Shown here in pieces: positions 46,201 through 56,823 of a DNA stretch of 64,000 bases; the first letter of the stretch is position 1; each line of letters opens with the position of its first letter. A program made the translations under genes and the position numbers. Source of the stretch: Defluviitaleaceae bacterium. GTDB lineage: Bacteria; Bacillota; Clostridia; Lachnospirales; WQUN01. The notes under the pieces were generated by a model. That model searched no databases. It was not told the DNA's origin and saw only the letters and a program-made list of their open reading frames with translations. Location: NCBI GenBank assembly GCA_009786535.1, contig WQRX01000004.1, positions 1 through 64,000 of the forward strand, in the 5' to 3' direction.

Positions 46201-46380
46201 TGAATCAAATATATTGGGTTTCTGCATGGGCAAAATATAGTGCATTAAATGACATGGGCGAAGTCAAAATTTGGTCGTGTAGACAACAGAGAGCGAAATG
46301 AATCGGACTATGATGAACATCTATATATAACCGAAAGCATGGATTTTTCACTGCTTGGGCTTGATGGCATCACTGGGATT
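46201..46380 (+). pseudogene. Broken small gene at the island edge
   Basis: An ATG with AAGAAGG 7 nt upstream opens MNQIYWVSAWAKYSALND, which stops after 33 residues. A +1 frame then stays open across ESDYDEHLYITESMDFSLLG before running into the 3' end of the serine-recombinase gene. This looks like a frameshifted gene, cut by insertion of the recombinase element. I do not recognise the protein. Confidence 0.35.
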
Positions 46381-48081
46381 TTGGGGAGTGCAAATATTGA
46401 CCCAAGTCCATACCAAAAATCGGTTATGAACTGCGGTAAAAATCCGTAGCGCATAGCCGATTTTAAATACCATGTAGCCGTAAGTGCGCGTGAACGTTGC
46501 GCCTGTGTTTAAGCGAATTTCTAGGTTCAAAGTCATGTTGGTAGTGGTGTCGTTTGTTACATAAATTTTATCGATTAGGGTATTTATGATACCGGGGGTG
46601 AGTTCACCTGTGTTTGCATTGAAGTAACGACGCAGTTCTTTTTTGAAGTGGTGCAATTTTGTGCTGTAGCTTGATTGGTCTTTTTGTTGGATTTGTAATT
46701 TTTTTAATGTACGTTCCAGTGCGGTAATTTCATCGTTGGCGGCATTGTTGCGTTGTTCAAATTCGGCGTTGGATAAGCGGTCTTCCACCGCTAAGTCGAT
46801 GAGTTTATTTTTGCGCACGGTGATTTTGGCTAGGTCAGTTTTTAAAGTTTTAATTTGCGCGTCTGTTTGCGTATTATTGTTTGCACTTTCCAGGAGGGCA
46901 ATGTACTTCGCAACCAATGTATCAAAATTGCTGGATAGGTCAGCTAGGACTTCCAGCAGAATTTCGGTGAGTTCGCTTTCTTTTATTCCGAAGGTGGGGC
47001 AGCTTTCTTTTCCGTTTTTCATGCGGTGGCTGCATACCCATGTGGGGTTTGCTTCTTGGGCGCGGACGCGCCTTGCTTTCATGTAAAAAGGAACGCCATG
47101 TTCGGCGCAGATAATTTTACCCGTGAATAGGTTGTTTGTTTTGAATGAACTGCGGCGGCTTTTTACCTCGGTGCTTCTGGCCGTGAAAATAGCATTTGCC
47201 CGCTCCCACAATTCTTCGCTTACGATGGGGGGCACTTTGTCAGGGTCGGGGTAGAGTTCCCATTCCGATTCGTCTAGAAATTTTTGTTTTTTGGTAAACA
47301 TATCAATAACTTTTACTTTGTTGCCACAGTAATAACCTTTATATTTTGGGTTAGTGATAATTTTGCGTAGTACATTGCGGTTAATAATACCACCTTTGAA
47401 ATTACGATAGCCTTTTTCGCATAAGATATTTTCAATTTTGGGCGTGGAATAATCTCCTGTGGCGTAAAGTTCATACACCATGCGCACCATTTCTGCTTCG
47501 GATTCGTTGATGATTAGCTTGCCTGCGGATTTTTCATAACCGTATATACGCGAATTGCCCATCACCGTGCCTTTTTTTATGGCTTCGTTGTGGCCGAAGC
47601 GGATGTGGCTCGATAACCGGCGGCTTTCCTCTTGGGCAAGGCTGGACATAATGGCAAGGCGCATTTCGCTGTCATCGTCAATTGTGTTAATACTGTCTTG
47701 CTGAAACCAAACGGCTACGCCATGACTTAACAATTCCCGCGTGTATTGGATGCTGTCTAGCGTGTTTCTTGCAAAGCGGCTGATTTCTTTTGTTATAATG
47801 AAGTCAAATTTATCTGTTTTTGCGTCAGCAATCATGGTGTGGAAGTTTTCACGGTTTTTAGTGGTGATGCCGCTTAATCCCTCGTCAATATAGTTACCCA
47901 CTAACTGCCAGTTTTGGTTGGCGGTGATGAAATCTTCATAATAAGAACGCTGGTTACCCAATGAGTTGAGCTGTTCGTCTTTGTCGGTGGAAACACGGGC
48001 ATAATACACCACCCGCAACGGCATATCCGAGAGGGTTTTCCCTATGGTTTTCATTTGGTTACGGATTTGGTATATATCCAT
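46348..48081 (-). CDS. Large serine recombinase
   Basis: A 577-residue site-specific recombinase. Resolvase domain with the catalytic serine in YYARVSTDKDEQ (Ser31) and the arginines in ISRFARNTLD and QEESRRLSSH. Recombinase domain near residues 180-290, a zinc ribbon (CAEHG...CSHR...CPTFG), then a coiled coil and a C-terminal DNA-binding end. GAGGTGA precedes the ATG. Such enzymes insert and excise elements without long repeats. The 3' end runs into the disrupted gene, so the last residues may be encoded by flanking DNA. Confidence 0.93.
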   Translation of the reverse strand: MDIYQIRNQMKTIGKTLSDMPLRVVYYARVSTDKDEQLNSLGNQRSYYEDFITANQNWQLVGNYIDEGLSGITTKNRENFHTMIADAKTDKFDFIITKEISRFARNTLDSIQYTRELLSHGVAVWFQQDSINTIDDDSEMRLAIMSSLAQEESRRLSSHIRFGHNEAIKKGTVMGNSRIYGYEKSAGKLIINESEAEMVRMVYELYATGDYSTPKIENILCEKGYRNFKGGIINRNVLRKIITNPKYKGYYCGNKVKVIDMFTKKQKFLDESEWELYPDPDKVPPIVSEELWERANAIFTARSTEVKSRRSSFKTNNLFTGKIICAEHGVPFYMKARRVRAQEANPTWVCSHRMKNGKESCPTFGIKESELTEILLEVLADLSSNFDTLVAKYIALLESANNNTQTDAQIKTLKTDLAKITVRKNKLIDLAVEDRLSNAEFEQRNNAANDEITALERTLKKLQIQQKDQSSYSTKLHHFKKELRRYFNANTGELTPGIINTLIDKIYVTNDTTTNMTLNLEIRLNTGATFTRTYGYMVFKIGYALRIFTAVHNRFLVWTWVNICTPQNPSDAIKPKQ

Positions 48082-48145
48082 GTGTCACCTCGCAGAATCA
48101 TTAAATCCATTGTAGCGAAGTTGCGCAGAAGCGCAAGCGCGCGTG

Positions 48146-48292
48146 TTAGCTTGCCCATATTTGCCGTTCGAGTGTTTCTTTTGTTTCTTGGGTGATTAAC
48201 CCTTGTGAAAAGGCTATGTTATTAAGCCTTAGCAACTGCAATTTGTCGTATTGCGCACGGTCATTTTTTCCAGCATATGGTTGCTTTTCCAT
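48146..48292 (-). CDS. Small SHOCT-like protein upstream of the recombinase
   Basis: A 48-residue protein (starts MEKQPYAGKNDRAQYDKLQL, ends ERQIWAS). Short SHOCT-like proteins of this type (a helix ending in LITQETKETLERQI) often lie just upstream of serine recombinases. AGAGGTG precedes the ATG at 48292. Same strand as the recombinase, 64 bp upstream. Possibly a recombination directionality or accessory factor; that is inference. Confidence 0.6.
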   Translation of the reverse strand: MEKQPYAGKNDRAQYDKLQLLRLNNIAFSQGLITQETKETLERQIWAS

Positions 48293-48410
48293 TAAAACAC
48301 CTCTGCTGATACTCTTTACATTTGACTTTATTTTTATACCCGCGATGTTCTCCCTCCATTCAATTTTCGGGCATTGTGTGCGTGGTTTAATTATGATATT
48401 CTTTTATTAG

Positions 48411-48475
48411 CACGTTCACTTTGGCACACATTCGATGTGAACGTCTCGCAATGATGCACCACCACATTGAACGTG
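48411..48475. promoter_or_regulatory. Three-copy TGAACGT operator
   Basis: CACGTTCA (48411-48418, inverted), TGAACGT (48438-48444) and TGAACGTG (48468-48475) lie between the minus-strand small gene and the XRE gene. Outer copies face each other. Probable binding sites of the XRE regulator for divergent control of the recombinase side and itself. Confidence 0.5.
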
Positions 48476-48488
48476 TCAAGGAGAATAT

Positions 48489-48962
48489 ATGGCTATTTTT
48501 GCAAAACGATTAAAGGAGCAACGCAAGGCACAGGGCATAACCCAAAAAGCGGTCGCTACCCATCTTGGCATAACTGAACAAGCATACCAAAAATACGAAT
48601 ACGCCATGCGCGAACCCGACCACAAAACAACCATCCACCTCGCGGAGTTTTTTCAAACATCGGTAGATTATTTGTTGGGGCGTTCAAACAATTCGGCTAT
48701 GTTTAATTATGAAAAAATTACCCAAGTCTTGTCAGATGAGCGATTGAAAATAGAAACGAAGGGGTCATATGCGCTTCTGCTCCAGTGTATAATAGGAAAC
48801 CGTGCAATCATCTTTAATGAAAAATTATTTTTACAAACTCATAGCCTCGAAAAAAATGACTTCGAGCGTATGTTGCAAGACTTGGAAAATTTGCAATATA
48901 TCCATATAATAGACAATAGCAATGATGACATCACGAACGAGCGGCATTTTGTGTTGCTGTAA
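48489..48962 (+). CDS. XRE-family regulator
   Basis: A 157-residue regulator with an N-terminal HTH_3 domain (RLKEQRKAQGITQKAVATHL, EQAYQKYEYAMREPD, LAEFFQTSVDYLLG) and a helical C-terminal domain without a known signature. AAGGAG precedes the ATG. It likely controls the island via the TGAACGT repeats directly upstream. Confidence 0.88.
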   Translation: MAIFAKRLKEQRKAQGITQKAVATHLGITEQAYQKYEYAMREPDHKTTIHLAEFFQTSVDYLLGRSNNSAMFNYEKITQVLSDERLKIETKGSYALLLQCIIGNRAIIFNEKLFLQTHSLEKNDFERMLQDLENLQYIHIIDNSNDDITNERHFVLL

Positions 48963-49014
48963 TATACCCTTTGCAAGCAATGAATCATGGGCCCAAATTG
49001 CCCAAGATTCGCTT

Positions 49015-49032
49015 GTTGGGGTAACCCCCAAC
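49015..49032. repeat. Short hairpin before the dam-type gene
   Basis: GTTGGGG/CCCCAAC with a short loop. It lacks a T tract, so it is not a clear terminator, and it resembles the first hairpin of the block inside rsmF. Confidence 0.4.
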
Positions 49033-49084
49033 CCTCATAAAATTAAGCCGCTTCGCGTCTGCTGAAAAACGAAAGGAGCCACCC

Positions 49085-49990
49085 ATGTCTACCCTACATA
49101 TCCAAAACAACGCCAAGCCCTTCATAAAGTGGGCAGGGGGGAAGTCGCAAATATTGAACGACATCCGCGCCCAATACCCAAGGGAACTAGGGCGCGGAAT
49201 AAAAAAATACGCCGAGCCTTTTGTGGGTGGCGGCGCAGTATTGTTTGACATATTAAACCGTTTCGATATGGAAGAGGTATACATTAGCGATATTAACCGT
49301 GAGCTTATCCATTCCTACACTTCCATTAAAAATGATGTCGCTTCTTTAATAGCATCATTAAAGGCATTGGAAGAAACATACCTCCACGCTGATGACGCAC
49401 AACGGAAGGAAATTTATTATATAAACCGTGACCGATTTAATATGTTAAAGCAACACAATGATATTTCCGTAGAGTTAGCTTCATTATTTATTTTTTTAAA
49501 TCGTACATGTTTTAATGGACTATACCGCGTAAATAGTAAGGGTGGTTATAACGTCCCGCAAGGCAATTATAAAAATCCGTGTATTTGTGATGTGCAAAAT
49601 CTCCATGCCGTTTCGGACAAATTGCAAAGGGTAATTATCACCCACGCAGATTATCAACACTCCCGCAATTTTATTGACCGCGATACATTCTGCTACTTCG
49701 ACCCACCCTATCGACCGCTAACAGAAACTGCAAATTTTAACGCTTACGCACAAGATGGATTTGATGATAATGCACAGGCCAACCTCGCCCAATTCATTGA
49801 TGAAATGAGCGAGTGCGGGGCACATGTGGTTGCTAGCAATTCTGACCCTACCAATGTGGATTTGAACGATAATTTTTTTGACGCGCTGTATGCACGGCAC
49901 AGGATTTTCAGAATCGAAGCCAACCGCGCCATCAATTCCGTGGGAAGCGGGCGGGGCAAAATACGGGAATTGCTTATCGCCAACGGCTAG
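49085..49990 (+). CDS. DNA adenine methylase, Dam/DpnM type
   Basis: A 301-residue class alpha N6-adenine DNA methyltransferase, most like enzymes that modify GATC. Motif I is FIKWAGGKSQIL (about residue 14), motif IV DPPY is in FCYFDPPYRPL (about residue 200) and the late motif is VVASNSDPTNV. AAAGGAG precedes the ATG. It is 9 bp upstream of a MutH/Sau3AI-like nuclease gene, the layout of a restriction-modification pair. GATC specificity is inferred from the family. Confidence 0.9.
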   Translation: MSTLHIQNNAKPFIKWAGGKSQILNDIRAQYPRELGRGIKKYAEPFVGGGAVLFDILNRFDMEEVYISDINRELIHSYTSIKNDVASLIASLKALEETYLHADDAQRKEIYYINRDRFNMLKQHNDISVELASLFIFLNRTCFNGLYRVNSKGGYNVPQGNYKNPCICDVQNLHAVSDKLQRVIITHADYQHSRNFIDRDTFCYFDPPYRPLTETANFNAYAQDGFDDNAQANLAQFIDEMSECGAHVVASNSDPTNVDLNDNFFDALYARHRIFRIEANRAINSVGSGRGKIRELLIANG

Positions 49991-49999
49991 GAGGATATC

Positions 50000-50623
50000 A
50001 TGCATAGAGATGAAGCGGTGCGCAGATTACAAGCATTAGAAGGACGTAATTTACATGAACTAGCACAAGAATTCAACATAACCGTTATGTCGGCTAATAA
50101 CAAAGTGAATAAAGGTTGGGCAGGGCATGTATGTGAACGATACCTAGGCTTGCCGATAAACTCTGGGCAAAGCCCTAATTTTGGTTCGTGGGAATTGAAA
50201 AGCATTCCATTAAAACGTCTTCGCAACGGAACACTCGCATTCAAAGAAACGATGGCGATTACTATGATTGACCCGTATAACGTACAACGCACATCTTTTG
50301 AAGAAAGTCATTTATTGATGAAGCTGCGTAAAGCTGTAATTGTGGCACGGGTAGTAGGTGCAACTTATGGTAAACCTTCATTTGTACACACGGTAACGTC
50401 GTTTGATTTGGATGGCGAATTGTTGGAAGCCGTTCGTACTGATTATGAATTGGTGCAGGCTTGTTTGAATGACCCTGTCCGTGGGTTTTCTGCTCTAACG
50501 GGGCATATGGGGCATTATATTCAACCGCGCACTAAGGGTAAGGGGCATGGGAGTGTATCGCGGGCTTTTTACGCTCGCACTAGATTTTTGGCAGAATTTA
50601 TAGATTTGACTGAACCTACATGA
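50000..50623 (+). CDS. MutH/Sau3AI-family endonuclease-like protein
   Basis: A 207-residue protein of the MutH/Sau3AI fold, whose members cut at GATC. Visible marks: NKGWAGHVCERYLG (Glu46), the ExK motif in WELKSIP (Glu65, Lys67), and FEESHLLMKLRKAVIVARV. In MutH and Sau3AI a catalytic Asp precedes ExK in a PDF-like context. Here the aligned segment reads SPNFGSWELK, with Asn60. Cleavage activity is therefore uncertain. AGGAGG precedes the ATG. The pairing with the Dam-type gene supports a restriction role. Confidence 0.8.
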   Translation: MHRDEAVRRLQALEGRNLHELAQEFNITVMSANNKVNKGWAGHVCERYLGLPINSGQSPNFGSWELKSIPLKRLRNGTLAFKETMAITMIDPYNVQRTSFEESHLLMKLRKAVIVARVVGATYGKPSFVHTVTSFDLDGELLEAVRTDYELVQACLNDPVRGFSALTGHMGHYIQPRTKGKGHGSVSRAFYARTRFLAEFIDLTEPT

Positions 50624-50706
50624 ATGTTCTAATATGCATATATGCTTGCATGTTAAGCAATTATGAGCCTATTTTGGCTCGAAATAAATTATTTTTAACA
50701 AAACTA

Positions 50707-50735
50707 TTGACATAATTTCAAAAAACGCCTATTAT
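50707..50735 (+). promoter_or_regulatory. Promoter of the DUF5986-ImmA pair
   Basis: TTGACA, 17 bp, TATTAT: near-consensus, 28 bp before the chosen TTG start. Confidence 0.7.
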
Positions 50736-50763
50736 GAATGAAAAATAATCGGAGGTGCGTTTT

Positions 50764-51528
50764 TTGTTTAACTCAAGAGATATTCCTTATACGGATGAAA
50801 AAAAGGCGGCCATTATACGCTGTATTCAATACGGCGTAGGTGATGGTATTATCGAGGCAACAGCAGGTTATGTAACAGACAATGGGCGCATAGGAACAAT
50901 TTGGGATTTAATAAACAAAGAACTATTTAACAAGCTAATAATTTTAGATTGTATGGTTGGGAAAACAAAACGAGGTGCGAATTGGAAAATTATGAGCGTT
51001 TTTGACGTTAAATCTGGTTATATTTGTCATGTGGTTCGGGAAGAACGATTGAAAAGTTTATTTTCATCATGGAAACGCGGAAATGAAATATATCATTATT
51101 TACGGTGTTCGTCTTATATCTTTAATAATGGACAAAAACCTAAATTTGAACAGGGGACAATATTTGACAGTAATCCATCCGAGTTTGAAATAAATAACAT
51201 AACTAAAACAACAGACCAAATCATAAATGACTTGAAAATAAATGAAAGTGATGTAAAAGGTCATTTCATTGTTCCGTTTAAACACAAGGGAGGAATTTTC
51301 AAGGTTCGCGCTATAGGCCTTAATGAAAAAATGGAAATAATAGCTGATGAATGTTGGAATCATTTAATTAATGTGAATGATAGCATTTCTGTGGAGCTAG
51401 CATCAGATTATTCTGATGCGGCAAATAATCCAAGCCGTAATCTTGAATTAACTGATAAAGCACTAAGGAGAACGAAGAGAGATTTAATAACAGATACACC
51501 TACAGAAGAAAAAAATAATATTTCATAG
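50764..51528 (+). CDS. DUF5986-like protein
   Basis: A 254-residue protein, apparently of the DUF5986 family: IEATAGYVTDNGRIGTIWDL, a KRGANWKIMSVFD segment and REERLKSLFSSW are its marks. The function is unknown. Members often sit beside XRE-ImmA/IrrE genes in mobile or defence contexts, as here. GGAGGT lies 6 nt before the TTG at 50764. A GTG nine bases earlier overlaps the ribosome site. Confidence 0.65.
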   Translation: MFNSRDIPYTDEKKAAIIRCIQYGVGDGIIEATAGYVTDNGRIGTIWDLINKELFNKLIILDCMVGKTKRGANWKIMSVFDVKSGYICHVVREERLKSLFSSWKRGNEIYHYLRCSSYIFNNGQKPKFEQGTIFDSNPSEFEINNITKTTDQIINDLKINESDVKGHFIVPFKHKGGIFKVRAIGLNEKMEIIADECWNHLINVNDSISVELASDYSDAANNPSRNLELTDKALRRTKRDLITDTPTEEKNNIS

Positions 51529-51555
51529 TAATAAACATGAAAGGAAAATCTTTTT

Positions 51556-52764
51556 ATGTATTTAAGAACATCTAACGGAAGAAGGCTTGAAAAATCATTT
51601 AACGGAAGCCGACTTGAACTAGCTCGAATATATAACGGTTATACGATAAAAGACTTGTCCGAAAAAGTTGGGCATCCTCGACAGACTCTTTCCGCATATG
51701 AAAATGGAAAAGAAGCAAACCCTAGTCCTTTTATTATACAAAAAATTTCAGAAGTGCTAGGGTTTCCAATTACATTTTTTTACGAAAAAACCACACCTGT
51801 AAAAGTGGGTTCAACTTATTTTAGAGCATTAAGAACAACAAGCAAAAAGTATCGAGACCAACAAAGACAAAAAATGTCAATTTTATCTAGTATTTATACA
51901 TTCATAAGTGAATATATTCGATTTCCTGTTTTTGACCCATTGGCATTAAAAAATATTTCATCGGACGATCCAGAACATGCCGCCGATTCGCTTCGGCAAC
52001 ATTGGCAATTGGGAATAAAACCGATTGAAAATATTATTTTTACTGTTGAAGAAAATGGAATCCCGATAACCAGCTATGAGACATCTACTGATGCAATTGA
52101 TGCCTTTAGTCAAATGATAGATATAGAAAATCGAAACATATATTTAATTGGATATTCAAGTAATAAAACTTCTGCCGCTAGAATCCACTTTGATATTGCC
52201 CATGAGCTAGGACATATTATTATGCACGAATGGAGCGAGGATGTAGAAGCCCTTACGAAAGACGAATTTAAAGAAAGAGAAAACGAAGCGCACGCTTTTG
52301 CATCAGCTTTTTTGATGCCCAAAGACAGTTTTCTTTATGACATTAAGAATTGCCATCTCAACATCCCTATGTACATTCAGTTAAAGAAAAAATGGAAAGT
52401 TTCAATAGCTGCAATGGCAAGGAGAGCATATACACTCGGAGTTACCACATATGACGATTATCAAAACATGATGCGTTTATTACAACGTCGCGGCATCAGA
52501 AAAGACGAGCCATTAGATGACGTGTTGGTTACATCTAAACCCACATTATTAAAAATGGCTATTCAAATGCTTTTAGACGAACGTATTTTTACCCCAAAAG
52601 AATTTATTAATGAACTAGCATATAATAATAACATGAGTTTAAATAGTCAAATTATTGAGGAACTTTTAGGCCTTCCTCAAAATACGCTAGTAGATGTAGC
52701 TCCTACCCACAAACTTTCGGTGAAAAACAAACCGTCACTTGGTATAGCGAATTTAAAAATTTAA
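51556..52764 (+). CDS. XRE-HTH / ImmA-IrrE metallopeptidase fusion
   Basis: A 402-residue protein. The N-terminal HTH_3 domain spans about residues 18-75 (ELARIYNGYTIKDLSEKVG, TLSAYENGKEA). A peptidase domain has the zinc motif HELGH at 216-220 (FDIAHELGHIIMHEW) and a downstream ENEAHAFASAFLMP with the third ligand Glu. A helical tail follows. ImmA-type proteins cleave repressors to switch on mobile elements, or act in toxin-antitoxin pairs. The target may be the XRE regulator at 48489 or the DUF5986 partner. Confidence 0.88.
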   Translation: MYLRTSNGRRLEKSFNGSRLELARIYNGYTIKDLSEKVGHPRQTLSAYENGKEANPSPFIIQKISEVLGFPITFFYEKTTPVKVGSTYFRALRTTSKKYRDQQRQKMSILSSIYTFISEYIRFPVFDPLALKNISSDDPEHAADSLRQHWQLGIKPIENIIFTVEENGIPITSYETSTDAIDAFSQMIDIENRNIYLIGYSSNKTSAARIHFDIAHELGHIIMHEWSEDVEALTKDEFKERENEAHAFASAFLMPKDSFLYDIKNCHLNIPMYIQLKKKWKVSIAAMARRAYTLGVTTYDDYQNMMRLLQRRGIRKDEPLDDVLVTSKPTLLKMAIQMLLDERIFTPKEFINELAYNNNMSLNSQIIEELLGLPQNTLVDVAPTHKLSVKNKPSLGIANLKI

Positions 52765-52992
52765 TAAGTTCACTTTAATTAAAATGGATAATGCATCATA
52801 TCTTGCAACAACATCTTAATTAATTTAATAAAATGCATTTATATATATACCCCACCTCTACCGCCGGCAGGTTCCGCATCCCCTCTCGGCGAGTGAAGGT
52901 TTTTTTTCGGGCGGGTGAGGCAGGGAAGCATTCCATCCTTTCCATGTGTCGTTCTGGCTCTATGGTTAATAGGGTGCGTATAGTTTAATTAT
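52765..52992. other. Gap at the right edge of the island
   Basis: AT-rich sequence to about 52850, then a GC-rich stretch (52860-52930) with CCGCCGGCAGG and a run of eight T. No gene or clear hairpin with a T tract was found for either side. It may be chromosomal DNA outside the element. Confidence 0.4.
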
Positions 52993-54108
52993 TTACCCCA
53001 GCACTTCCCTCACGTTTGTATACCCCATTCCAAAGGCATGTGCCACTTCTTCATAGGTTAAATGACCGTTGTAGCAATTTACGCCGTTTGCGATGTTCAT
53101 ATCCGCGCGGGCGGCTGCTTCTAACCCCATGTTGGCAATTTTTAACCCGGGCGATAAGGTTGCGTTGGTAAGGGCAAAGGTGGACGTTCGGCTTACCGCC
53201 CCCGGCATGTTGGCTACGCCGTAGTGAATAATGCCGTCAATCACGTAAGTGGGGTCGTTGTGGTAGGTGCGGCGGGTGGTTTCGCAGCAGCCGCCTTGGT
53301 CTACAGCTACGTCTACAATAACTGCGCCCTCGCGCATGGTTTTTAAGTGGTCGCGCTTTACCAGCTTAGGTGCGGCACCGCCCGGGATTAAAACCGCACC
53401 AATAACAAGGTCGGCGTGTTTTATTGCCTTTTCAATGGCGGCAGGGGACGAGTACATAGTTTGAATTTGGTTTTGAAAAACGTCGTCAAGGTAGGTTAAG
53501 CGGTCGATGTTTGTATCTAAAATCGTTACGCTTGCGCCAAGCCCTACCGCCATTTTCATAGCGGCGGTGCCTACTACGCCGCCGCCAAGGATTACGACAT
53601 CGCCTTTGGTTACACCTACCGAACCGCCAAGTAATACGCCGCGCCCGCCCATGGGTTTTTCTAAGCAGTGTGCGCCCGCTTGTACGCTTAGCTTGCCTGC
53701 AATTTCGCTCATTGGACGCAGCAGGGGCAAGCCGCCGTGGTCGTCGGTAATGGTTTCATACGCGACGGCCTTGGTTTTTTTTGCAAGAAGCGCGTCCGTT
53801 AAATCCTTTTCCGCCGCCAGGTGCAGGTAGGTGTAAATAATTTGCCCTTCGCGGAAGTATTGAAATTCTTCCGCCAGCGGTTCTTTTACCTTAACTATCA
53901 TGTCGCAGGTTTCCCACACTTCTTTGGCGCCGACAACAAGGGTTGCGCCCGCGCGTTGATACTCCTCGTCCAAAAAGCCCGACCCTGCCCCCGCGCCTGT
54001 TTGCACATATACCTGATGTCCATGCTGTACGTAGCTCATTACGCTGCCCGGCGTAAGCCCTACCCGGTATTCATTTTGCTTTACTTCCGTTACCGTTCCT
54101 ATGCGCAT
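52993..54108 (-). CDS. ald: Alanine dehydrogenase
   Basis: NAD-dependent oxidative deamination of L-alanine to pyruvate and ammonia, also used in sporulation and germination in spore formers. The 371-residue length is normal. Marks: KEPLAEEFQYFREGQIIYTY, ETITDDHGGLPLLRPMSEIAG, the NAD fold GGGVVGTAAMKMAVGLGA and VDVAVDQGGCCETTR. AAGGAG precedes the ATG. A -10 TATAAT lies at 54149-54154 on this strand. Confidence 0.96.
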   Translation of the reverse strand: MRIGTVTEVKQNEYRVGLTPGSVMSYVQHGHQVYVQTGAGAGSGFLDEEYQRAGATLVVGAKEVWETCDMIVKVKEPLAEEFQYFREGQIIYTYLHLAAEKDLTDALLAKKTKAVAYETITDDHGGLPLLRPMSEIAGKLSVQAGAHCLEKPMGGRGVLLGGSVGVTKGDVVILGGGVVGTAAMKMAVGLGASVTILDTNIDRLTYLDDVFQNQIQTMYSSPAAIEKAIKHADLVIGAVLIPGGAAPKLVKRDHLKTMREGAVIVDVAVDQGGCCETTRRTYHNDPTYVIDGIIHYGVANMPGAVSRTSTFALTNATLSPGLKIANMGLEAAARADMNIANGVNCYNGHLTYEEVAHAFGMGYTNVREVLG

Positions 54109-54227
54109 GTAAATGCACTCCTTCGAATTTTTGATTATCTGCGACGTGATTATACATTATTTGCACCTATCCTGCCGATAAAATATAATGAAGCAACTTC
54201 ACCCATTTTGGCACAAGGAAATTGCGC

Positions 54228-55430
54228 ATGATGTTACCCGTTATCACCCGTATTCTACACGAATTTGGGGACGATGTATTCAAAAATATGCAGCGCACCA
54301 ATGCGATGCTAATGGATTTAGCCCCGACGCAAATCCGTGAGCGTATTTTGGTGCGCAATTTTATTGAAGCCGACGGGTACGAAGCATTAACGCGGGGCGA
54401 TGCCTTCCCGCTGGCAGAGCAACGCCTGCTGCAGCATTTAATCGAAGTTTTTTCCTTGGAAAAAAGCGCCGCCCTGTGGGTAATTCGCCTTTTTGGTGCC
54501 GCCCTGGGGCAAATTTCCGAAAATGAATGGACCGGGGACTCCGCTGCGGGCATTGCCGCATATTCCTTGCCGTATTTGCATGGGCAGGTGGCGCTGGGTA
54601 AAACCCACGTTGCTGCCGTTTCTACCGATGGTACGGTATTGGCGGGCGGGGCAGACGATGCCTATCAATGCAATGTTGCCTCGTGGCGCGATGTAGTCGC
54701 CGTTGCCGCAGGTGACGAGCATACGCTTGGGTTAAAAAGTGACGGCACGGTGCTTGCTGCGGGGTCAAACGCCTTCGACCAATGTGACGTGCTTCATATG
54801 AAAGATGTGGTGGGCGTGTATGCCTTTGGGCATGACAGCGTTTTCGTTTTCGCCAACGGAAAGGCGGCGGCAGCGGGGCGCAGTAAATGGGATTTGTCGT
54901 CCTTTGAAAATGTTGTCAGCATTGCCCATTACCCGGAAGGGGTGATAGGCATACGCGAGGACGGTACGCTTGCCCTCGCCTCCCGCGCGGTGGACGATGA
55001 TTTACTGCGCGAGCAGGAATGGCTTTTGGCGCAAACGGACGTGCGGCAAGTAATTTCCACCTATATAAATGGGAGCATTCTGCTTAAAAAAGACGGGCGG
55101 CTTTACAAAAGCGGCGAGCCTGATAATTATTTTGCCCAATGGCGCGATATTGTAAGCATTGCCAACGTAACCGACGGTTTTGCCGTTTTGCTGGAAGACG
55201 GCACGGTGCGCATTTTAGCCTACGACCGTGCTAAGCCTCGTATCTCTACTTATGCCGACCGTTGGGCAAACGTAAAAGCCATTTACGGCGGGTATCGCCG
55301 TATTATTGGGCTAACCCACGACGCACGCCTGCTTGCGGCGTGTACAAATCTAGGCTGGCTGTGGCACAATACCGCTATGAGTATTGACTATGTGACAGAC
55401 TGGTACCCTGTGAGTGCATATTATGGATAA
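54228..55430 (+). CDS. RCC1-like propeller protein with N-terminal helical domain (A)
   Basis: A 400-residue protein. Residues 1-95 form a helical domain (ITRILHEFGDDVFKN, LMDLAPTQIRERI, LLQHLIEVF) shared with the next gene. The rest is about seven RCC1-type repeats, for example VAAVSTDGTVLAGG followed by WRDVVAVAAGDEHTLGLKSD, enough for one beta-propeller. Some repeats are degenerate. RCC1-type propellers bind proteins or nucleotides. There is no signal peptide, so it is cytoplasmic. AAGGAA lies 9 nt before the ATG at 54228. Its place beside a TerY-P triad suggests a partner or substrate of the kinase. Confidence 0.8.
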   Translation: MMLPVITRILHEFGDDVFKNMQRTNAMLMDLAPTQIRERILVRNFIEADGYEALTRGDAFPLAEQRLLQHLIEVFSLEKSAALWVIRLFGAALGQISENEWTGDSAAGIAAYSLPYLHGQVALGKTHVAAVSTDGTVLAGGADDAYQCNVASWRDVVAVAAGDEHTLGLKSDGTVLAAGSNAFDQCDVLHMKDVVGVYAFGHDSVFVFANGKAAAAGRSKWDLSSFENVVSIAHYPEGVIGIREDGTLALASRAVDDDLLREQEWLLAQTDVRQVISTYINGSILLKKDGRLYKSGEPDNYFAQWRDIVSIANVTDGFAVLLEDGTVRILAYDRAKPRISTYADRWANVKAIYGGYRRIIGLTHDARLLAACTNLGWLWHNTAMSIDYVTDWYPVSAYYG

Positions 55431-56823
55431 TCGGATTTTAGACGCGCTTAAAGCCATACGCGATACCTATGGCGACGCGGTCTTTTACAACGTGACCACT
55501 ACGCGAAACCTGCTCGCCGACCTTGCCCCCGATTTACGCAAGGAACGTATTCAAATCACCCATTTCTTAGACATGGGGGGGTACTTTCCGTTAAAATATG
55601 CGGAAAAGGAATACGATGTAGTGCGCTCGCGCCTTGTGGAACAATTGATGGCAACCTATTCCACCATGCGCCCCATCGCGGATTGGGTGCTGGATATTTT
55701 TAGCAAGTTCCTAGGCTATAATTTGGACGAGGAAAAAGGCGCGTACAAGCCACCCGACAAGCCAACGGGCAAGCCCCTTATCGGCGACCGTATCGACCGG
55801 AAAGATAAGCCTGCGGTAATTAAAAACAGCGGGCGCATTGAGCGGTCCGTGGAAAAAAAGCCCATCACAAGCGCACTATATCCCGCACCGCCCTTGCAGC
55901 CTACGCAGCGCACCGAAGAAAAGCCAAGCAAATCCATACACGAATACAACTTTCCCACGCTGCACCTGCCCGAAAGCGCCGCAAAAAAAGACCCCACCCT
56001 ACGCATTGCGGCGGATTATCACAGCGTGGCAATTACCCGCGACGGTTTTGTAAAGGCGGTGGGCTTAAATTCCGACGGGCAGTGCAACACGATAACTTAT
56101 GACTGGCGCGATATGGCGGCGGTAAGCGCGGGGGGCTACTATACCGTGGGCTTACGTGCCGACGGCACCGTTACGAGCGCGGGGCGAAACGACTTTGGGC
56201 AGCGCGATTTCCTAGGCTGGCGCGAAGTTGTAGGCATTTCTGCAGGTGCGCGCCATACCGTGGGTTTGCGGGCAGACGGTACGCTGCTTTCCACAGGGCA
56301 AAACAAACACGGCGAATGTGATGTACGGCATTGGCGCAATATCGTTAAAGTAATTGCGGGCAACGCCTGCACCTTCGGTATAAAAAAGGACGGGCGTGTG
56401 CTGGTGAGCGGGCGCAACATTAAAGGCGACCTGCAGGCGTCCCACCTTAACGGCGTGGTAGACATTGCTTACGGCGGACCCGGGCGCGTAATTGCATTGC
56501 TCTCCGACGGGCGCATTGCCCGCGTAGGGCAGGAAAACCACATGCGCCGCAGCTTTACGCTGTACAAGGACGTAAAGCAAATCGTAGCCGCGCCCGACTA
56601 TTTTGCGGGTTTAATGGAGGACGGCACAGTAAAACTGCTCGCTTATTTTTGGACAGATTGCGGCACAGAAGCCGCCGTCACCGACTGGACAGGCATACGC
56701 GCCATCGCCGCGGGGCGTTATCATATTTTAGGCTGGCAAAACGACCGCTTAATAGGGGCGATGCTGCACCCCGATATTGGGAAGGATAAGGGACAGTTAA
56801 GTGTGACACGATGGGAGATGTAA
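55423..56823 (+). CDS. RCC1-like propeller protein with N-terminal helical domain (B)
   Basis: A 466-residue paralogue of the preceding protein, overlapping it by 8 bp. The N-terminal helical domain (residues 1-100: LLADLAPDLRKERIQITHFL) is followed by a 90-residue Pro/Lys-rich, low-complexity linker that is absent from copy A, then about six to seven RCC1 repeats of clearer form (VSAGGYYTVGLRADGTVTS, SAGARHTVGLRADGTLLSTG). The linker is rich in Ser/Thr/Lys and could be a phosphorylation target, which is speculation. Start ATG at 55423. Confidence 0.8.
   Translation: MDNRILDALKAIRDTYGDAVFYNVTTTRNLLADLAPDLRKERIQITHFLDMGGYFPLKYAEKEYDVVRSRLVEQLMATYSTMRPIADWVLDIFSKFLGYNLDEEKGAYKPPDKPTGKPLIGDRIDRKDKPAVIKNSGRIERSVEKKPITSALYPAPPLQPTQRTEEKPSKSIHEYNFPTLHLPESAAKKDPTLRIAADYHSVAITRDGFVKAVGLNSDGQCNTITYDWRDMAAVSAGGYYTVGLRADGTVTSAGRNDFGQRDFLGWREVVGISAGARHTVGLRADGTLLSTGQNKHGECDVRHWRNIVKVIAGNACTFGIKKDGRVLVSGRNIKGDLQASHLNGVVDIAYGGPGRVIALLSDGRIARVGQENHMRRSFTLYKDVKQIVAAPDYFAGLMEDGTVKLLAYFWTDCGTEAAVTDWTGIRAIAAGRYHILGWQNDRLIGAMLHPDIGKDKGQLSVTRWEM

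Follow-up and report, generated by a model that had tools for sequence, protein, structure and literature searches.

Several described systems, cited here from excerpts, resemble parts of the locus that we report. In the spore former Bacillus cereus, the gin element of gerE (GirC, GirX) is a non-phage serine-recombinase element with restriction genes on board, and its excision needs a small factor (PMC5595907). The Vibrio cholerae PLE is a small antiphage island that moves by means of a large serine recombinase (PMC6002521). RosmerTA is a known phage-defense family (PMC10440598), with a toxin gene followed by a gene for an antitoxin that combines XRE and ImmA-type protease domains; for its pneumococcal member RipAB (Spr1630-Spr1629), the sliding clamp has been proposed as the target of RipA (PMC12795458). 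DpnII, Sau3AI, and MutH represent the GATC systems. We compared these with a 6.5-kb island in a Defluviitaleaceae bacterium. It lies in the first 64,000 nucleotides of contig WQRX01000004.1 (contig C4 of genome G000, a 3.42-Mb assembly), and this whole 64-kb stretch is called the window below. Such Defluviitaleaceae metagenome-assembled genomes (MAGs) are presumably of termite-gut origin.

Each comparison reveals differences as well as likenesses. Whereas gin, in the excerpted account, spans 28.6 kb, encodes three recombinases, and splits gerE, the window island has one recombinase, and its copy lies outside known sporulation genes; a sister island, locus L050, splits an SASP spore-protein gene. 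Gene-intervening elements of the skin and gin type split a sporulation gene that excision restores. The PLE, as excerpted, has other cargo, and its phage-triggered excision is no feature seen in the window island. Both PADLOC halves of RosmerTA match the window pair, but the window toxin is a DUF5986 protein; the sliding-clamp target is proposed for RipA, not for this protein. The window methylase is closest to DpnM and its nuclease has the MutH/Sau3AI fold, but this nuclease is a single domain with asparagine at the catalytic aspartate. The general features of the island are already known; what merits experimental work is the exchange of recombinase tails and the asparagine-type MutH family.

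A compact island with a fixed core and an exchangeable defense slot

The block is probably a non-conjugative serine-recombinase island with a GATC restriction-modification (RM) core and a slot that holds RosmerTA. A first-pass annotation had described it as a compact mobile defense island, AT rich, and free of structural phage genes. All of the genes that it listed, from the recombinase through XRE-ImmA (46348-52764), are open and were recognized in open reading frame (ORF) calls and family scans. G+C content is 0.32 to 0.48 inside the block versus about 0.50 to 0.58 in the flanks, and a PHROG scan of the seven island genes returned zero structural families. Neither a conjugation module nor a virion or packaging gene was recognized among these seven genes in Pfam, NCBIfam, PADLOC, and PHROG scans, and the window contains no tRNA genes.

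The nearest relative that carries the module is L050, from a Defluviitaleaceae MAG of the same genus (genome G003). Gene order is the same, with identities of 70% for the recombinase, 61% for the small ORF, 58% for XRE, 68% for Dam, and 83% for the MutH-like protein. The right ends of the two islands match over 65 bp at 81.5%, and the three-operator pattern is kept. The cargo of L050 consists of DUF2130 and an AbiO/Nhi-type helicase (AbiO 453 bits; 449 bits); searches found neither a DUF5986 gene in G003 nor an ImmA homologue in L050. Since core, right end, and operators are shared while cargo differs, the core of the island is fixed and one slot is exchangeable. This slot, between the MutH-like gene and the right end, swaps defense cargo: RosmerTA in the window and AbiO/Nhi in the sister. 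With a sister element elsewhere, a constant core, and swapped cargo, the first-pass description is well supported, and the island would represent a minimal mobile defense unit, a recombinase-regulator-RM core with a slot for abortive infection. Between the MutH-like gene and the cargo, L050 also has a decayed second methylase with several in-frame stops (L050:9887-10642), a remnant not found in the window.

The block could instead be what is left of a larger prophage or integrative and conjugative element (ICE), its RM and toxin-antitoxin genes being leftovers. Related recombinases do occur in large elements: on contig G083:C6 the SASP halves lie about 57 kb apart, and another is on a 137-kb viral contig. 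However, the sister island is equally compact at 8.6 kb, with both ends intact and defense-type cargo, and the PHROG scan gave no structural family among the seven genes. We consider a remnant unlikely. The features of the window island are collected in Table 1.

Table 1. Predicted features of the island and its left flank (window positions)
Feature	Position	Strand	Evidence
Host gene remnant, left flank (3' part of paralogue of 208-aa protein)	46249..46449	+	53% identity to G000:C4:111907-112068; DNA match 46249-46405
Large serine recombinase; last ~39 codons probably host DNA	46348..48081	-	Pfam Resolvase 4.5e-29, Recombinase 7.1e-17, Zn_ribbon_recom 5.4e-8; PHROG integrase 1.7e-120
Putative left crossover core (AA on +)	46466..46467	.	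Bracket 46405 (host match) to 46502 (first match to L050)
48-aa partner protein, candidate directionality factor	48146..48292	-	61% identical copy in L050
Three operators, TGAACGT cores	48412-18, 48438-44, 48468-74 (span 48412..48474)	-, +, +	Repeat count; kept in L050
XRE repressor, 157 aa	48489..48962	+	HTH_3 4.8e-11; RstR family 1.9e-17, below cut-off; 58% identical copy in L050
Dam-family adenine methylase	49085..49990	+	TIGR00571 271 bits, cut-off 115; best solved relative DpnM, 2dpm, 1.6e-45
Single-domain MutH/Sau3AI-fold endonuclease	50000..50623	+	Pfam MutH 2.8e-11; predicted model pLDDT 92
Promoter-like site for toxin-antitoxin pair, TTGACA-17-TATTAT	50707..50735	+	11/12 match
DUF5986, predicted RosmerTA toxin RmrT	50755..51528	+	PF19448 3.6e-29; PADLOC RmrT PDLC03930 6.7e-37
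XRE-ImmA fusion, predicted RosmerTA antitoxin RmrA	51556..52764	+	PADLOC RmrA PDLC03944 490 bits; Peptidase_M78 4.1e-15
Putative stranded recombinase C-terminal tail, 49 codons + stop, read in circular form	52820..52969	-	Open in recombinase frame; right end
Putative right crossover core (AA on +)	52968..52969	.	Bracket 52905 (end of L050 match) to 52992 (ald stop; ald ends at 52993)

A proposed exchange of recombinase tails for target-gene codons

The window recombinase has the Resolvase, Recombinase, and zinc-ribbon domains of large serine recombinases. Its relatives were sought in 295 genomes of the order; 28 genomes matched, and 30 of 31 places gave loci. Recombinases of this family have repeatedly inserted in SASP genes. 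In 13 of the 30 loci (L146, L148, L150, L152-L160, L162), the last codons of the recombinase ORF are C-terminal codons of SASP; two further loci, L147 and L151, border on SASP in the reverse orientation. Where the other junction is readable, the N-terminal part of SASP continues, in the same frame, as a short tail encoded by the element. The sequences also suggest spoIVA as another target gene, with three ORFs ending in an apparent SpoIVA (L170, L171, and L174; Pfam-checked for L170 only, SpoIVA_C 76/76), and one ORF (L149) ends in a tyrosine-integrase C-terminus.

L050 illustrates the exchange. Its insertion leaves SASP positions 1 to 49 of 59 as the N-terminal part, the missing C-terminal codons close the recombinase ORF 8.6 kb away, and joining the flanks yields an intact SASP reading frame like the intact copies in relatives. 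In such relatives inserted in an SASP gene, the attachment site (attP) lies within the recombinase ORF, so that on insertion host codons take the place of the recombinase tail. We infer the same arrangement for the window, where the original tail would be the stretch stranded at the right end. The circular form would thus encode a recombinase with a conserved element-encoded tail; in the integrated form, the recombinase would carry a host-encoded tail, and the original one would be left fused to the N-terminal part of the host protein.

Element-encoded tails are conserved. When eight of them were aligned (window, L175, L187, L208, L210, L214, L217, and L222; the near-identical L216 and L218 were left out), the summed pairwise score was 864 versus 494 ± 21 in shuffles, with 0 of 500 shuffles reaching it. 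Without the window-L175 pair, the score was 763 versus 474 ± 18, again reached by none of 500, and the recombinase frame was the top-scoring of six. Both junctions are on one contig in G003, G001, and G083, while elsewhere tail and recombinase are linked by motif only. On viral contig L208, the recombinase ends in a tail resembling the element-encoded ones, as expected of an uninserted form. The recombinases of viral records L209 and L226 end instead in KKMI-type tails, and the free form is therefore not seen in every viral record.

We tentatively propose, at somewhat less than even chance, that recombinase and target exchange C-termini and that the tail serves as a directionality switch, dependent on recombination state, for small defense islands and prophages of spore formers. 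If true, control of recombination direction by a tail swap would make a simple genetic switch. Neither an attP within a serine recombinase gene nor the targeting of SASP genes was described in the titles and abstract openings of the open-access literature searched or in the excerpts of PMC5595907. The recombinase would move the island, and the 48-aa partner is probably its directionality factor. Small ORFs that look alike by eye (..LNN..F..GLI..) stand upstream of the recombinases of many relatives.

Dam and a MutH-like nuclease look like a GATC restriction-modification pair

The Dam methylase and the adjoining nuclease look like a predicted GATC-specific type II RM pair, and family, fold, and pairing suggest that they would act as one. 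A structural model of the nuclease aligned with MutH (VIA-align Z 19.4, rmsd 3.0, 197 aligned) and with Sau3AI (Z 17.9, rmsd 2.7, 181 aligned). Its score against the Sau3AI model NF040973 was below the cut-off (49.1 versus 300 bits), and the protein consists of one domain of 207 aa. We found 244 relatives among 254 candidate stretches from many phyla and kept the best 80. Upstream neighbors of these homologues matched N6_N4_Mtase in 48 of 78 cases and D12 methylases in 26 of 78; among same-strand downstream neighbors, 13 of 33 matched N6_N4_Mtase. A single one of the 78 upstream neighbors, next to its MutH-like gene, has a match to the DpnI family, named after an enzyme that cleaves methylated GATC.

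The MutH fold and the Dam-family partner would also suit methyl-directed mismatch repair rather than restriction. Yet the protein scores far under the MutH equivalog cut-offs (PRK05070, 50.9 versus 243 bits; TIGR02248, 35 versus 229.9 bits), and it occurs beside methylases of two unrelated classes, lies on mobile DNA, and is both uncommon and scattered, with matches in 10 of the 295 genomes at E 0.001 and strong ones in only 4 of these. A repair role is very improbable by our estimate.

Restriction at GATC is consistent with the composition of the window, which has 3 GATC sites versus 117 ± 10 expected from dinucleotide shuffles, the lowest of 16 palindromic tetramers. Observed-to-expected ratios, computed over 57 to 159 kb per genome, were 0.033 (G000), 0.005 (G003), 0.000 (G005), and 0.013 (G011) in genomes with a full-length D12 methylase, versus 0.42 (G001), 0.35 (G002), 0.63 (G004), 0.11 (G016), and 0.13 (G019) where this methylase gave no match or a weak partial one. 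In G005 and G011 the methylases are other D12 enzymes, and this MutH-like nuclease does not accompany them. L050 has 6 GATC sites in the element (24 expected) and 0 in its flanks (30 expected), as expected of an element arriving from a less depleted genome. In G000, G003, G005, and G011, GATC is almost missing (for example, 1 site in 77 kb of G003 and 0 in 60 kb of G005), a depletion that far exceeds that of other palindromes. GGCC (0.16) and CCGG (0.35) also fall below trinucleotide expectation in the window, a hint of other restriction pressures.

The regulatory region and the RosmerTA pair

The first-pass annotation had credited the island with its own control circuit, which is plausible because the XRE gene has operators that are conserved. 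These triple operators are real, with three TGAACGT copies in 63 bp versus 7.1 expected over all 64 kb. They lie between divergent operons, and a promoter-like site on the recombinase side, 48479-48451 (-), overlaps the third. Judging from conserved operators and gene order, the XRE protein bound to the three operators may restrain both the recombinase and its own XRE-Dam-MutH operon.

DUF5986 and XRE-ImmA are the predicted toxin and antitoxin of a RosmerTA system, and we propose DUF5986 as a toxin of this family. Of the 295 genomes, 8 have DUF5986, with an ImmA-type gene adjacent in all 8. Family and pairing suggest that the pair would halt the cell when a phage infects. For DUF5986, GGAGG at 50749 makes TTG at 50764 the likelier start codon. 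The promoter-like site upstream of the pair is a consensus match only, shuffles being about as rich in such sites. Against NCBIfam antitox_spr1629, XRE-ImmA scored 217 bits, below the cut-off of 335. A single-sequence structure model of DUF5986 reached a pLDDT of 38 and was of no use; a six-member profile found no credible relative among solved structures (best E 0.09), and a single-protein search found no relatives on viral contigs.

The term "ImmA-type switch" in the first-pass annotation is not supported for this protein, which scores as a RosmerTA antitoxin beside its own toxin. ICEBs1, a conjugative element, has a separate ImmA protease beside ImmR; in the window, HTH_3 and Peptidase_M78 occur in one protein, the protease being fused to its own HTH. 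One could still picture XRE-ImmA as an antirepressor that cleaves XRE and releases the recombinase, as ImmA acts on ImmR in ICEBs1, since the ImmA/M78 domain is common to both and an XRE repressor with operators lies in the same island. Its fused HTH, its 490-bit score as RmrA, and its constant travel with DUF5986 argue otherwise, as does the sister island, which keeps XRE and operators with no ImmA homologue found. We regard an antirepressor role as very unlikely.

Observations that qualify the interpretation

Several observations weigh against an RM and RosmerTA island with the limits given here. The first concerns its ends. The first-pass annotation recognized the island, but its start at 46201 does not stand, as 46249-46405 is host DNA matching a paralogous gene elsewhere in the genome. 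The likely element span is 46466-52967, and a start at 46466 makes the 3' codons of the recombinase, from 46348 to about 46465, host DNA. Within their brackets, however, the core positions were set by matching the opening codons of the tail to those of L050, and the exact ends rest on this homology. A dyad-symmetry scan ranked the L050 core, known from the SASP gene, at the top and gave 46466/52968 for the window, but the window symmetry was not significant (attP symmetry reached by 45 of 200 shuffles, total score by 131 of 200). For L050, 182 of 200 shuffles reached the attP symmetry and 117 of 200 the total score. Given these shuffle results, symmetry was dropped as evidence for attachment sites. 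The ends of the window island are not marked by a direct repeat. They do share 6 bp, CCATGT (46470/52942), but this alternative is less favored because the tail codons that match L050 would be lost.

There is also no clean empty site for the window insertion in the spoIIIAH neighborhoods of eight relatives. Synteny breaks right after spoIIIAH in 8 of 8, and ald is on the same stretch only in G004, about 10 kb off with island genes absent between; spoIIIAH and ald are thus not neighbors in relatives, which accounts for the missing empty site. The first-pass annotation had held that the island would be in doubt if all relatives carried the same genes with no empty site; this is not the case, island genes standing beside spoIIIAH in 0 of 8 (some stretches are short). 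The window copy adjoins the 3' side of an uncharacterized gene remnant, with no known sporulation gene at the site. The contig also carries an intact paralogue of this remnant (46249-46449), some 65 kb further downstream.

Two points concern the proteins. In the literature searched, DUF5986 is not mentioned by name, and no tested function was found for it. In the MutH-like alignment (84 rows, two short ones dropped), position 60 is Asn in 83 rows and Asp in 1, and it aligns with the catalytic, metal-binding Asp of MutH and Sau3AI. The E-D-E-K set of MutH is incomplete here, N60 replacing Asp. The protein might therefore have lost cleavage and act as a GATC-binding regulator or sensor, given that the other metal and lysine positions are kept beside N60. 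But E46, E65, and K67 are invariant over the 84 rows and many phyla, which would not be demanded if catalysis were gone, and GATC depletion suggests real cutting pressure. We favor a cutting enzyme and hold loss of cleavage to be unlikely, though the least so of the alternatives considered. N60 is a conserved change by its distribution in the alignment, not the mark of a broken gene. The single-domain MutH-like nucleases with this altered active site form a widespread family.

The depletion itself has limits. Only 4 genomes stand against 5, the genomes are not phylogenetically independent, and the exact one-sided p of 0.008 for the perfect split ignores kinship. GATC is partly depleted also in genomes without the module (0.11 to 0.63), so depletion cannot be credited to this island alone. 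According to the excerpted account of Rusinov et al., site avoidance grows with the residence time of an R-M system (PMC4687349); strong depletion thus speaks for long-standing GATC pressure on the lineage and not for this insertion as its sole cause.

Beside ald, two adjacent genes (54222-56823) show RCC1-like repeated sequence by eye.

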